This document shows positions 1 to 5,267 of a stretch of 64,000 nucleotides of DNA, in pieces. The stretch lies in the NCBI GenBank assembly GCA_017436845.1, contig JAFSCJ010000005.1, positions 1-64,000 on the forward strand, read 5' to 3'. The notes beneath the pieces are model-generated. The model had not been told where the DNA came from. It saw only the letters and a program-made list of their open reading frames with translations, and made no database searches. Every line of letters begins with the position of its first letter. Within the stretch, counting starts at the first letter, position 1. The position numbers and the translations under genes were made by a program. Source of the stretch: Muribaculaceae bacterium (GTDB lineage Bacteria; Bacteroidota; Bacteroidia; Bacteroidales; Muribaculaceae).

Positions 1-146
1 CGACCCAAGTTGATGTCCTTTTTGAGTTAATAATCAATAAAAGCGTTAAATCTTCACCTTTTAGAATGTGCAATTAAAAATAACAACCATATTTCTGACT
101 TATTATCTATAAAATATTGAGTAATAATCGGTTGTAAATACCAGCA

Positions 147-698
147 CTTAAAAGTATTGACATCCCTAACAGCGTAACTGAAATCGAGAGTAGCGCATTC
201 GAGGGGTGCTCAGCTCTTAAAAGTATCGACATTCCTAATAGTGTAACTAAAATCGAAGCAGACGCATTCGCTGGATGCTCAGCGCTTAAAAGTATTGACA
301 TCCCTCACAGCGTTACTGAAATCGAGCACTCTACATTCAAAGGATGCTCGTCACTTGAAAGTATTGACATCCATAATAGCGTAACCCAAATCGGATGGAA
401 CGCATTCAACGGGTGCTCAGCTCTTAAAAGTATCGACATTCCTAATAGTGTAACTAAAATCGGAGCAGACGCATTCGCTGGATGCTCGTCACTTGAAAGT
501 ATTGACATTCCTAATAGCGTAACTTCAATTGGGAGGAGGGCATTTGAAGGATGCTCGGCGCTTGAAAGCATTGACATTCCTAACAGCGTAACCCAAATCG
601 GATGGGACGCATTCAAAGGGTGCTCAGCTCTTAAAAGTATTATCATTCCTCACAGCGTAACTGAAATCGGATACTCTGCATTTGAAGGAACAAGATGG
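147..698 (+). repeat. First 69-bp tandem LRR array (8 units)
   Basis: Units begin at 147, 216, 285, 354, 423, 492, 561 and 630, each 69 bp (23 codons). Units at 216 and 423 are almost identical in nucleotide sequence, and so are the starts of units at 354 and 561, giving a 207-bp higher-order period (three units). This suggests recent duplication of a three-unit block. Confidence 0.85.
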
Positions 699-833
699 TT
701 AGACCAACAACCACCCGGATTGATTGTTATTAACACCATTTTATTCCGCTGCACTGATAAATCAGTTACTAAAATCGAAATTCCCGATAACATAACTAAA
801 ATAAGTCATGGCGCATTCGAGGGGTGTTCAGCG

Positions 834-1316
834 CTTAAAAGTATTGACATCACCAATAGCGTAACCCAAATCGGGTTCAAAGCATTCGAGGGGTGTTCAG
901 CACTTGAAAGTATTGACATACCTAACAGCGTAACCGAAATTGGGGGATGGGCATTCGATGGATGCTCGGCGCTTGAAAGTATTGACATCCCTAATAGCGT
1001 AATAAAAATCGGGAGTGGCGCATTCAAAGGGTGCTCGGAGCTTGAAAGCATTGACATTCCTAATAGCGTAACTGAAATCGGGGAATGGGCATTCAAAGGG
1101 TGCTCGGCACTTGAAAGCATTGACATTCCTAATAGCGTAACTGAAATCGAATGGGGAACATTCGAGGGGTGCTCAGCTCTTGAAAATATTGACATTCCTA
1201 ATAGCGTAACTAAAATCGAATATTATGCATTCAATGAATGCTCGGTGCTTAAACGCATTGACATTCCTAATAACGTGACTCAAATCGGAGGCTCTGCATT
1301 CTCTGGATGCTCTGCG
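834..1316 (+). repeat. Second 69-bp tandem LRR array (7 units)
   Basis: Seven units of 69 bp start at 834, 903, 972, 1041, 1110, 1179 and 1248. They share the LxSIDIPNSVT core with the first array and run into the C-terminal cap at 1317. Confidence 0.85.
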
Positions 1317-1499
1317 CTTAAAGAAGTGCATTGTCGCAGAATTGAGAATATCAAAGAAATGGAGGTTAATAAATCGGCTTTTGAGGAAGACCATTTTGAG
1401 GCATGCGTGTTATATGTTCCAGACGGAACTCTATTGGAATATAGGCATCACCCTGTGTGGGGCAGATTCAAACAAATCGAAATCGACCGCACAGAATAG

Positions 1500-1827: not shown

Positions 1828-2271
1828 TCATTCTTTTTGCATCAGATTGAGCGTGATTTTGCAACGCTCTCCGCTATAGAAAGCATCAAGCACCTCGCCA
1901 AATATATCATTTGGCGATAAAAGGTCAAACATTGTCATACAAGAACGAACCTTGAGTGCATCTATTTTCCCAAAGATAGACAATGTTGTCTTATCCTTAT
2001 GTTCAAGGAGCACATTGGTTATCTCTCTTATTCTCTCTCCAAGGATTGGGTGATCAAGATATCGTTGTGCTTCACCCCTATCGGCAATTCCATAATAGTG
2101 AGCGCGACTGCTACGACCCAGGCTTCGTAATTGTGGGAATATATACCAAATCCAATGAGTTGTTTTCTCTCCGTTCCTCACTTCTTCCAAGGCATGCTTA
2201 TAGCCACAAAAATAAGAATTTTCTTGTGCTTCAAGAAAGCGGTTTATGTCAGTTTCTGTTAAGATGTTCAT
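1828..2271 (-). CDS. DUF1810 family protein
   Basis: A 147-residue cytoplasmic protein matching the full length of DUF1810. Recognisable family features are the N-terminal FLEAQENSYFCGYKHALEEVRNGEKTTHWIWYIFPQL region (shown here only as a landmark for residues 12-48), the LGRSSRAHYYGI segment and the HPILGERI turn. No catalytic function is established for the family as far as I know. It has no signal peptide or membrane segment. It stands alone, downstream of the asnS terminator and in the same orientation. No promoter box was identified before it. Confidence 0.85.
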   Translation of the reverse strand: MNILTETDINRFLEAQENSYFCGYKHALEEVRNGEKTTHWIWYIFPQLRSLGRSSRAHYYGIADRGEAQRYLDHPILGERIREITNVLLEHKDKTTLSIFGKIDALKVRSCMTMFDLLSPNDIFGEVLDAFYSGERCKITLNLMQKE

Positions 2272-2284
2272 AATACTAAAGCTT

Positions 2285-2343: not shown

Positions 2344-3741
2344 TTAGAATTCAGCGTTGTTTGGAGTGCGTGGGAATGGGATAACGTCACGAATGTTTGT
2401 CATACCTGTAACGAACAACAACAAGCGTTCGAAGCCCAAGCCGAAGCCTGCATGAGGCACTGTACCGAAACGACGAGTATCAAGATACCACCACATATCC
2501 TTCATTGGGATATTAAGCTCTTCGATGCGTGTCATCAACTTGTCATAGCTTTCTTCACGAACACTACCACCGATGATTTCACCAATTTGTGGAAACAATA
2601 CGTCAGTTCCTTGAACAGTCTTACCATCTTCGTTTTGCTTCATGTAGAATGCTTTGATTTCCTTAGGATAGTCAGTCATGATTACTGGCTTGTTGAAGTG
2701 TTCTTCTACAAGGTAGCGTTCATGTTCGCTGGCAAGGTCGCAACCCCAATATACAGGGAATTCAAATTTCTTACCGCCAGCAACTGCTTCTTCAAGGATC
2801 TTGATACCTTCTGTATAAGGCAAACGCACAAATTCAGTATTTACAACCTCATTCAAACGTTCGATCAAGCCTTTGTCAATCATATTATTGAGGAACTCAA
2901 GGTCATCTTTACAGTTGTCAAGAGCCCAACGGATACAATATTTAATAAACTCTTCTTCCAAATCCATCAAGTCGTTGAGGTCGGCAAATGCAACTTCAGG
3001 CTCAATCATCCAGAACTCAGCCAAGTGGCGAGGAGTGTTTGAGTTTTCAGCGCGGAATGTTGGGCCGAAAGTGTAAATAGAGCCAAGAGCTGTAGCAGCC
3101 AACTCACCTTCAAGCTGTCCTGAAACAGTCAAGCTTGCTTGCTTTCCGAAGAAGTCATCATCATAGATTATAGAGCCATTCTCATCTTTCTTTAGGTCAT
3201 AGAGGTTTTTAGTTGTTACCTGGAACATTTGGCCTGCACCTTCACAGTCAGAAGCTGTGATGATGGGAGTGTGGAAATAGAAGAATCCATGTTCATGGAA
3301 GAATCGATGGATAGCGATTGCCATATTGTGGCGAATGCGGAACACTGCACCAAATGTGTTTGTACGAGGACGCAAGTGAGCTTTTTCACGAAGGAACTCC
3401 ATTGTGTGTCCTTTCTTTTGCAATGGATATGTTTCTGGGTCAGCAGTACCATAGATTTCCAATGATGTTGCTTGGATTTCGGCTGATTGACCTTTACCCA
3501 TTGACTCAACAAGTTGACCTATTACATGGATACTTGCTCCTGTTGTAATGGGCTTTAGTTGTTCTTCAGTAAATTTCTCCATATCAAAAACGATTTGAAT
3601 GTTTTTGATTGTAGAGCCATCATTAAGAGCGACAAACTGTACATGCTTGTTTCCACGACGAGTTCTCACCCACCCTTTGACACTAACTTCAGACCCAATC
3701 AATTGAGGGTTGAAAATGTCAACTATTTTAGTTCTTTTCAT
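2344..3741 (-). CDS. asnS: Asparaginyl-tRNA synthetase
   Basis: A 465-residue class II aminoacyl-tRNA synthetase that charges tRNA-Asn with asparagine. The N-terminal OB-fold anticodon-binding domain carries [23 protein letters not shown]. Motif 2 is visible in [25 protein letters not shown] and motif 3 in [15 protein letters not shown] near the C-terminus, which ends in the family-typical [26 protein letters not shown] is the typical AsnRS form of this segment. The gene lies 33 nt downstream of rluB on the same strand, so the two are probably co-transcribed, and it ends at a strong hairpin terminator. Confidence 0.96.
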
Positions 3742-3774
3742 ATCTTAATTATTCCTTTGTTATCTCATAATATA

Positions 3775-5121
3775 TTATTCAAAAGAGCCCATCTTCAAGA
3801 AGTTAACTTCTTCTTGTGTTAGATAGCGCCAACGTCCACGTGGCAAGTTTTTCTTTGTGAGACCGGCAAAATAAACGCGGTCAAGTTTTGTTACATGATA
3901 GCCAAGAGATTCAAATATGCGACGTACAATGCGGTTGCGGCCTGAGTGGATTTCAATACCTGCTTGATCACGATCTGTCTCAGTTGCGTAGCTGATAGCA
4001 TCGGCATGGATTGGGCCATCTTCAAGTTCTATACCATCGGCAATGCGTTGCATATCATCTTCTGAAATCTCTTTATCGCACCACACATGATAGATTTTCT
4101 TCTTCACATATTTTGGATGAGTCAATTTTGACGCAAGATCACCATCATTTGTGAGTAACAGCACGCCTGTTGTATTACGGTCAAGACGACCTACAGGATA
4201 AATTCTTTCATTGCATGCACCCTTAACAAGGTCCATTACTGTCAAACGCCCATTAGGATCATCACTTGTTGTTACGCAATCTTTTGGTTTATTGAGCAAA
4301 ATGTAACATTTGCTTTCAAGTGTAACAATCTTTTCATCATACTCAACTGTATCATTGTGTGAAATCTTTGTTCCGAGTTCAGTAACAACAGCGCCATTAA
4401 CTTTAACAAGTCCTTGTTGGATATATTCGTCAGCCTCGCGACGTGAACAAATTCCGGCGTTGGCCATAAACTTGTTAAGACGAATTTGTTCGTTTGGATC
4501 CGGAATTTCCATTTCATACTCAATGCGTTTTGGGCGTGGCACAAAGCTCTTGCCTCGCATTGGCAATCCGTTATTATTGTTGCGTTTTTGACGGCGGTTA
4601 TTGTTATATCCGCCTTGATTGTTGTTATAACCTCCTTGACGACGATTATTATTGTAGCCACCTTGGTTGTCATATCCCCCTTGACGGTTGTTATAACCTC
4701 CTTGGTGACGATTATTGTAACCACCTTGGTTATTATAGCCACCTTGTTGGCGATTGTTATTATAGCCACCTTGGTTGTCATATCTGCCCTGACGATTATT
4801 GTAACCGCCTTGACGGCGATTGTTATTATAACTTCCTTGGTTGTTATATCCACCTTGATGGTTGTTATACCCCCCCTGGCGATTATTACTATAGCCTCCT
4901 TGACGATTATTATATCCACCTTGTTGGCGATTATATTGACGTGGTTGGTAATTACGCTCCGACGAATAATCATTTGAAACATAGCTTTGGTCGCCCGAAA
5001 CCTCATAATCAGATGATTGATTATAATTTACTCTTTCATAACGCGCATCTTGCTCTTCGTGATTTACACTGCGCAATTCCCCAATGCGTGGTCTTTTGGG
5101 TTTCTTTTCTACATTATCCAT
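3775..5121 (-). CDS. rluB: RluB/RsuA-family rRNA pseudouridine synthase with a long low-complexity N-terminus
   Basis: A 448-residue protein. Residues 1-60 are charged, residues 61-185 are almost only Asn, Gln, Gly, Arg and Tyr with about a dozen GGY motifs, and the enzyme proper starts near 210. The S4 RNA-binding domain covers about 212-260 (IRLNKFMANAGICSRREADEYI). The synthase domain follows, with catalytic Asp314 in GRLDRNTTG. Family members convert a uridine in 23S rRNA (RluB) or 16S rRNA (RsuA) to pseudouridine; which rRNA is used here cannot be read directly. The tail is far longer than in E. coli RluB (about 290 residues). Long frames in other phases across the repeat are shadows. 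Probably the first gene of an operon with asnS. Confidence 0.9.
   Translation of the reverse strand: MDNVEKKPKRPRIGELRSVNHEEQDARYERVNYNQSSDYEVSGDQSYVSNDYSSERNYQPRQYNRQQGGYNNRQGGYSNNRQGGYNNHQGGYNNQGSYNNNRRQGGYNNRQGRYDNQGGYNNNRQQGGYNNQGGYNNRHQGGYNNRQGGYDNQGGYNNNRRQGGYNNNQGGYNNNRRQKRNNNNGLPMRGKSFVPRPKRIEYEMEIPDPNEQIRLNKFMANAGICSRREADEYIQQGLVKVNGAVVTELGTKISHNDTVEYDEKIVTLESKCYILLNKPKDCVTTSDDPNGRLTVMDLVKGACNERIYPVGRLDRNTTGVLLLTNDGDLASKLTHPKYVKKKIYHVWCDKEISEDDMQRIADGIELEDGPIHADAISYATETDRDQAGIEIHSGRNRIVRRIFESLGYHVTKLDRVYFAGLTKKNLPRGRWRYLTQEEVNFLKMGSFE
4567..4941 (-). repeat. Imperfect tandem repeat coding for the N/Q/G/Y/R tract of rluB
   Basis: Variants of short units encoding NNRQGGY and NNQGGY repeat through this stretch (residues 61-185 of the RluB-like protein). 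Copy number is likely to vary between strains through slippage, always in multiples that keep frame if function is selected. Confidence 0.8.
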
Positions 5122-5267
5122 AAATTTCTTTTAAACAGGCCTCTCGGCGTTAATTAGGTTTATTTATAAATTTATCTAAGATTATTATTCAATACTTTCT
5201 TTCAATATAAGACTCCCTCAAATTCATTTCACATCAGCATTAACCGGTCTTATATAAATTGATTGTG

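Follow-up and report, generated by a model that had tools for sequence, protein, structure and literature searches.

Evidence that a BspA-like leucine-rich-repeat gene is split by a Tn4555-family element with an integration bias towards such repeats

An open repeat frame at a contig end

How can a long and fully open leucine-rich-repeat (LRR) frame come to lack a start? The question is raised by the frame at 138–1499 of the window, by which we mean the whole 64,000-nucleotide stretch of DNA that was analysed; its base 1 is the first base of contig C5 in a genome of 2.25 Mb and 25 contigs. The frame comprises 453 open codons and, as an earlier, sequence-only reading had correctly stated, follows directly upon an in-frame stop (TAA, 135–137). 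It consists of 69-bp LRR units (TRF period 69, 16.7 copies). Pfam LRR_5 (PF13306, BspA type) matches it with an E-value of 4.9e-144, at 473 bits against a cut-off of 27.7, and tandem 23-residue LRR_5 units place it in the BspA type. The same reading had found no ATG or GTG in it. This is true of the first 369 codons, which hold no in-frame ATG, GTG or CTG and only one TTG, at 720; it is not true of the whole frame, which goes on to ATG at 1359, GTG at 1245, 1275, 1326, 1407 and 1455, and TTG at 1434.

A higher-order period of 207 bp had also been proposed. The pairs of units on which it was based are indeed alike: 94.2% identity for 216/423 and 91.3% for 354/561, the whole 207-bp blocks reaching 85.5% (216/423) and 82.6% (147/354). 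As a period of the entire array it is not significant (permutation p = 0.14; best-of-six-lags p = 0.64), the mean unit identity being 76.9% at lag 3 and 73.6–76.4% at lags 1, 2 and 4–7.

What, then, precedes the repeats, and where is the rest of the gene? The features that bear on these questions are the following.

1–141, no strand assigned: right terminus of a Tn4555-family mobilizable transposon (bases 1–140 and a constant C at 141)
142–147, plus strand: crossover or coupling segment (target copy), CAGCAC, adjoining the right end, as read from the table of flanks
142–1499, plus strand: 3′ part of a BspA-like LRR gene, with 69-bp units, a C-terminal stretch of its own and the stop TAG at 1497–1499
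C1:57525–58008 (L005:1435–1918): 5′ part of the same LRR gene, with an ATG and about six repeats
1831–2274, minus strand: downstream neighbour of the split gene, 148 aa, which we take to be DUF1810-like; no NCBIfam match
2344–3744, minus strand: synteny anchor, presumably asnS (asparaginyl-tRNA synthetase)

Two contig ends and one divided gene

The first 140 bases of the window, like the last 140 of contig C1, lie outside the LRR sequence, and both are homologous to the ends of Tn4555. Searched against plasmids, the right end (window) matched 12 records, ten of them at 99% or better and six at 100% over all 140 bases. The left end (C1) matched 10 records, in Bacteroidales, the best at 100% over 140 bases. 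In this the element resembles Tn4555 to the letter on both sides. The two ends form an imperfect inverted pair (TGTATTTATAACC / GGTTGTAAATAC), and each is found once in the genome at 100%. The C that follows base 140 is identical in all 24 right ends compared, our own and 23 others, among which L080 and L083 are probably one copy. The final bases of the right terminus, GGTTGTAAATA(C), contain the in-frame TAA at 135–137. An origin of this stop by mutation of the LRR gene is ruled out; it sits in the right end of the transposon (..GGTTGTAAATAC).

What do such ends enclose? In the plasmid record NZ_CP103142 they bound an element of about 12.1 kb annotated with Tn4555 tnpA, integrase, tnpC and excisionase and carrying a predicted CfxA gene; in NZ_CP103154 they bound one of about 10.1 kb with the same Tn4555 gene annotations and an annotated CfxA gene. 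Transfer of the cfxA resistance gene among Bacteroides and its relatives is what Tn4555 is known for. In the window's assembly, unlike in Tn4555, the body of the element is missing, and the element is known here from its ends: the tnpA–int DNA of Tn4555 gave no match in this bin, in a search run without a positive control. Nor did either end match viral contigs. The exact 140 bases on each side may be the residue of an assembly graph with k = 141 at a repeat with branching ends.

At DNA level the window's array has one other match in the genome, at the right end of contig C1. There a frame with an ATG breaks off inside a repeat, 140 bases before the contig end, at the element's left end, and the stop that closes it, like that at 135–137, sits within the element's end. 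The longest exact word common to the two parts is 62 bp. The flanks read ...GGATGCT CAGTCT on C1 and C CAGCAC TTAAAAG... on C5; they meet at one and the same repeat position, with the reading frame running on from one into the other. There is no target duplication, and the six-base segment differs between the sides (CAGTCT on the left, CAGCAC on the right), as it may in the Tn4555 family. Tribble is said to have described a 6-bp coupling sequence for Tn4555 in 1997.

Are the two contigs neighbours? In the same-genus genome G421, 14 kb at the DUF1810-like locus hold no LRR gene, rpiB or asnS. Synteny was therefore tested from rpiB. In the closest relative, G429, asnS directly follows rpiB, with some 75 bases between them and neither an LRR gene nor a DUF1810-like gene; identity to G429 is 98% for rpiB, which lies on C1, and 99.6% for asnS on C5. 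This support comes from one genome, G429 being the only one of seven same-genus genomes fetched around rpiB in which asnS lies near it. From the adjacency in G429 it follows that C1 and C5 are neighbours, and that in the window's species the LRR gene and the gene downstream of it stand between rpiB and asnS. Homologues of the DUF1810-like gene occur in 10 of 60 relatives besides the genome itself. In view of the element ends at both contig ends and the adjacency of rpiB and asnS, we conclude that one BspA-like LRR gene has been split and that the assembly is broken there. The start is missing because the right end of the element precedes the repeat frame. The start-less frame is in itself ordinary: half of a gene that a mobile element has interrupted, lying where the assembly breaks. 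We found no intact copy of the split gene; among 60 relatives, its own genome apart, nothing closely matches its C-terminal stretch (37% identity in the best match by E-value).

Might the end of C1 and the beginning of C5 belong instead to two LRR genes, interrupted separately by two copies of the element? A genome may carry more than one element of this family, as six genomes with two left ends and a published account (PMC10333322) indicate; moreover, the contig ends are not joinable by sequence alone, and the adjacency of rpiB and asnS is seen in one of seven relatives. Two such events would, however, have had to fall in the same rare register and leave a frame that continues across them, in a genome with a single perfect copy of each end and with rpiB and asnS adjacent in its nearest relative. 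We consider this very improbable.

A division of one gene is close to one of the interpretations in the sequence-only reading, that of a recently truncated gene; the gene is interrupted, with its ATG-bearing 5′ part on C1. Nearest of all to the outcome was a possibility raised there as an objection, a true start upstream concealed by an assembly error: there is indeed a start, carried by another contig on the far side of a mobile element that the assembly failed to bridge. The third proposal fared badly. According to it, the frame would be a silent donor cassette, a reservoir of repeat variants that recombine into a complete BspA-like gene elsewhere. Its units are similar at DNA level, the C1 array has the 62-bp word in common with it, and further LRR genes are present on C2, C5, C10, C14, C21 and C22. 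But at DNA level the genome holds a single further match, the ATG-bearing end of C1, and this belongs to the interrupted gene itself as its 5′ portion rather than to a second, complete gene; the missing start, for its part, is accounted for by the transposon end. A donor cassette is thus extremely unlikely.

Insertions of related elements

If an element of this family has divided one LRR gene, where do its relatives lie? An exact 47-base left-end pattern yielded 28 stretches in 27 species genomes; after removal of one insertion without a flank (G011), 27 of the 28 insertions were used. An insertion was called LRR by a profile HMM, built from nine LRR segments of the genome's other LRR genes and applied to junction-contiguous frames on both strands. 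Twelve of the 27 were LRR by profile, and 13 with G023, which was judged by eye to be the C-terminal end of a BspA-like gene and has an LRR_4 match further along. LRR_5 makes up at most 0.25% of these genomes (488 stretches, 75.6 Mb). Against this share the binomial p is about 2e-27 for 13 of 27, and 2.5e-22 for 11 or more. Genomes with LRR insertions hold more LRR_5 stretches than the others (p = 0.005; per Mb p = 0.013). Of 2000 random points, taken from the window and seven same-genus loci and not from the sampled genomes, 14 were profile-positive, all beside the window's own array.

With the window's split gene, the right end of a second element on contig C21 of the same genome and five diverged copies, the first set came to 34 insertions, of which 18 are LRR (three of the five diverged copies). 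One of these copies, G133, was read one base off its terminus. Partial matches short of the terminus (G089, G298, G360 and G363) and matches in genomes already counted (G000, G216, G304 and G347) were left out of these counts. A 49-base end, L097, was not counted apart; it is probably the left flank of G016, and it is not LRR-like.

Does the bias recur in other genomes? The outcome of a second sample was predicted before the result was seen. A search of 399 genomes of the family of G004 gave 58 places, namely 11 already counted, one duplicate (G463, with the same contig coordinates as G285), eight partial matches and 38 new left ends, which were used. Thirty of the 38 lie in LRR frames, all in one orientation, and in 28 of the 30 the six bases fall exactly on the two codons after a Phe codon. 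The six genomes that carry two left ends have different flanks at the two, both of them LRR.

In total, 48 of 72 insertions are in BspA-like LRR genes, 46 by profile and two by eye (G023 and our own C21 end). The 72 include the C21 right end; a 79% right end in G006 (L081) was left out. Classic Tn4555 ends are in LRR genes in 16 of 31 cases, diverged ends in 32 of 41. Since 24 of the 72 insertions lie outside LRR genes, the bias is strong, not exclusive. Insertions in plasmids were kept out of the 72, although two of them entered the site matrix described below; no LRR gene is annotated at the plasmid sites, in a gene table that is incomplete. We are highly confident that the LRR gene was split by a Tn4555-family element and that integration in this family is biased to BspA-type LRR coding DNA.

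Two elements of the survey call for a separate remark. The one on C21 (C21:362429–374334; L026:7430–19335) belongs to the Tn4555 family and runs off the contig end; its right end is 79% identical. The flank on its right looks, by eye, like the final repeat of a BspA-like gene, Pfam finding nothing in the fragment. It carries an AraC-type regulator, an outer-membrane/HlyD/ABC exporter set, AbiEi–AbiEii and DUF6371, and a protein related to a long protein of Tn4555, on which Pfam is silent and which we take to be a mobilization protein. In Prevotella ihumii (L051) the left end differs over its first bases, as if these had been replaced or lost.

Orientation, register and core of the target

In what way does the element enter a repeat? 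All 48 LRR cases are oriented alike, with the left end on the 5′ side, and every profile positive is on one strand. In 43 of the 48 the element stands, on at least one side, in a common register directly after Ala-Phe codons; many flanks end ...Ile-Gly-x-x-Ala-Phe-x-x of the BspA-type repeat. Off this register are G005, G016, G668, G583a and the window's own insertion, which falls at T GCT–CAGCAC–TTA AAA. Among the 40 in-register left flanks, which were selected as in frame, a Phe codon stands at the junction in 40 and an Ala codon in 35. The 12 in-register right flanks of the first 34 insertions have a Cys codon in ten cases, TAT in one (G007b) and a displacement of two bases in one (G020). 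The one right flank that was read in the second sample (G541) has a Cys codon and then LRR. Sixteen of the first 34 insertions are profile-positive, eight of them on both flanks; the right flank of G005 is not LRR.

This regularity bears on the possibility of a survivor bias, in which insertion would occur anywhere and persist only in dispensable LRR genes. LRR_5 is present in 26 of 27 genomes, and LRR genes are many in most of them and plausibly dispensable. Survival, however, leaves one orientation in 48 of 48 cases and one register in 43 of 48 unexplained, and it offers no reason why other dispensable DNA should not be favoured. We regard it as highly unlikely.

Is the LRR context itself read, or are LRR arrays merely dense in sites of the form T-rich–N6–TG or GCNTTY–N6–TGY? 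Insertions outside LRR genes show a weak core of like shape: T at −3 in 14 of 18, T at −2 in 12 of 18, C or T at −1 in 16 of 18, and TG on the right in 7 of 10, in AT-rich surroundings. The window's array, moreover, holds 13 of the window's 18 GCNTTY–N6–TGY sites. Yet outside LRR arrays there are some 176–931 such sites per genome (extrapolated from samples of 59–72 kb), and these are hardly used, the left half GCNTTY being found at 1 of 16 non-LRR insertions of one set and at 0 of 8 of the second sample. With a matrix built from the non-LRR sites, the 200 best-scoring sites of the window likewise included none on the sense strand of the array and six on the antisense strand, against about two expected, although this comparison is limited because the array of the window, the only one used, is poor in TTTY sites. 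A local core alone is an unlikely explanation, less readily set aside than survival.

When the repeats that were hit (40 hits) were compared with 168 unhit repeats of the same frames, none of 36 positions differed after correction, and the Ala codon was not significant as a selector of the hit repeat (p = 0.13). No finer recognition sequence is therefore seen. From this equality of hit and unhit repeats, together with the scant use of GCNTTY–N6–TGY sites outside LRR genes, we infer that LRR-coding DNA is recognised as such.

A route to the present locus can be proposed. A BspA-like LRR gene between rpiB and asnS was hit by an integrative mobilizable element of the Tn4555 family. The tyrosine integrase would recombine the element's ends with a target that is loosely T-rich, followed by six bases and then TG. 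Landing is biased to BspA-type LRR coding DNA, with GCN TTY–N6–TGY as the usual crossover, where N6 is the two codons that separate the repeat's conserved Ala-Phe pair from its Cys codon. The element's own TnpA would direct it to LRR DNA.

TnpA, the Bacteroides fragilis hot spot and comparable elements

What might recognise an LRR? TnpA has HTH_17 in three stretches at E 0.001 and in four at E 1; it also matches MerR_1 and carries a Cys4 motif at its N-terminus. The LRR-sited relatives G541, G519 and G585 carry tnpA, the tyrosine integrase, tnpC and further Tn4555 genes; TnpA is 89% conserved in two of them, whose integrase is 93–94% identical, and 100% in the third. The genes that such relatives share with the annotated copies of Tn4555 are tnpA, integrase, tnpC, excisionase, an AAA ATPase and DUF6371. 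A further protein common to both, annotated as hypothetical, is presumably a mobilization protein.

For Tn4555 a review reports a preference for a 589-bp locus of B. fragilis with a 207-bp direct repeat, and an essentially random insertion once tnpA is deleted (PMC5704250). Now 207 is 3 × 69, or three LRR periods. The B. fragilis hot spot with its 207-bp direct repeat may thus be an LRR gene or array, and TnpA the reader of LRR DNA. We lean towards a wider statement, which we think rather probable: BspA-type LRR arrays would serve the entire Tn4555 family as natural attachment sites, TnpA would be an adaptor with several HTH domains that recognises LRR-coding DNA, and the hot spot of 1997 would be one such array. 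If so, dozens of landing sites, equivalent and expendable, are on offer in an LRR-rich genome, and resistance and defence cargo is carried into LRR genes across Bacteroidales.

How does this compare with what is known of related systems? For Tn4555 the target described is the B. fragilis locus; here, unlike there, it is a class, BspA-type LRR coding DNA, with a register and an orientation. The window's gene shares sequence and repeat period with BspA-type LRR proteins, and differs from them in being split by an element and in having, by eye, no signal peptide at its N-terminus, MEIDKNLIL.... By NCBIfam the repeat at 138–1499 matches the PARCEL repeat model TIGR02167. One parallel came to light, an element named Tra II from a mycoplasma, Mycoplasma capricolum. 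Like ours, this conjugative-type element lies precisely inside a gene, one of tandem PARCEL repeats, and leaves an N-terminal and a C-terminal part; unlike ours, it is a single mycoplasma case, for which the accessible part of the source gives no target-site rule (PMC2996958). For PARCELs a dyad symmetry of the DNA is described and, for some taxa, an association with mobile elements (PMC2996958). MTnPi1–3 of Prevotella intermedia are mobilizable transposons too; they have tyrosine integrases and a short site motif in which five bases are free (PMC4755523, PMC5704250). They differ in having two integrases in tandem (PMC4755523) and sites of the form TTAC/TTGC–N5–AA (PMC5704250), and LRR genes are not named as their targets in the accessible parts of either source (PMC4755523, PMC5704250).

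In the literature that we searched, outside which most subscription papers lie, we found no statement of an LRR preference for Tn4555-family elements. The rule that these elements target BspA-type LRR coding repeats has good support and is, within the literature searched, new. What has been described of site preference in Tn4555, in the literature covered here, goes no further than a hot spot with its 207-bp repeat and a gene for targeting. Should that target be the BspA-type LRR repeat, the hot spot gains a name and the role of TnpA becomes directly testable; insertions become predictable from sequence, and each landing truncates an LRR gene. A caution follows for genomes of this sort: an LRR frame that lacks a start and lies at a contig end may be half of a gene at an unassembled mobile element.

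One minor observation concerns another frame of the window. That at 3775–5130, on the minus strand, looks like a pseudouridine synthase; it has a long low-complexity tract of N, G, Q, Y and R near its start, which short tandem repeats at 4601–4954 encode.
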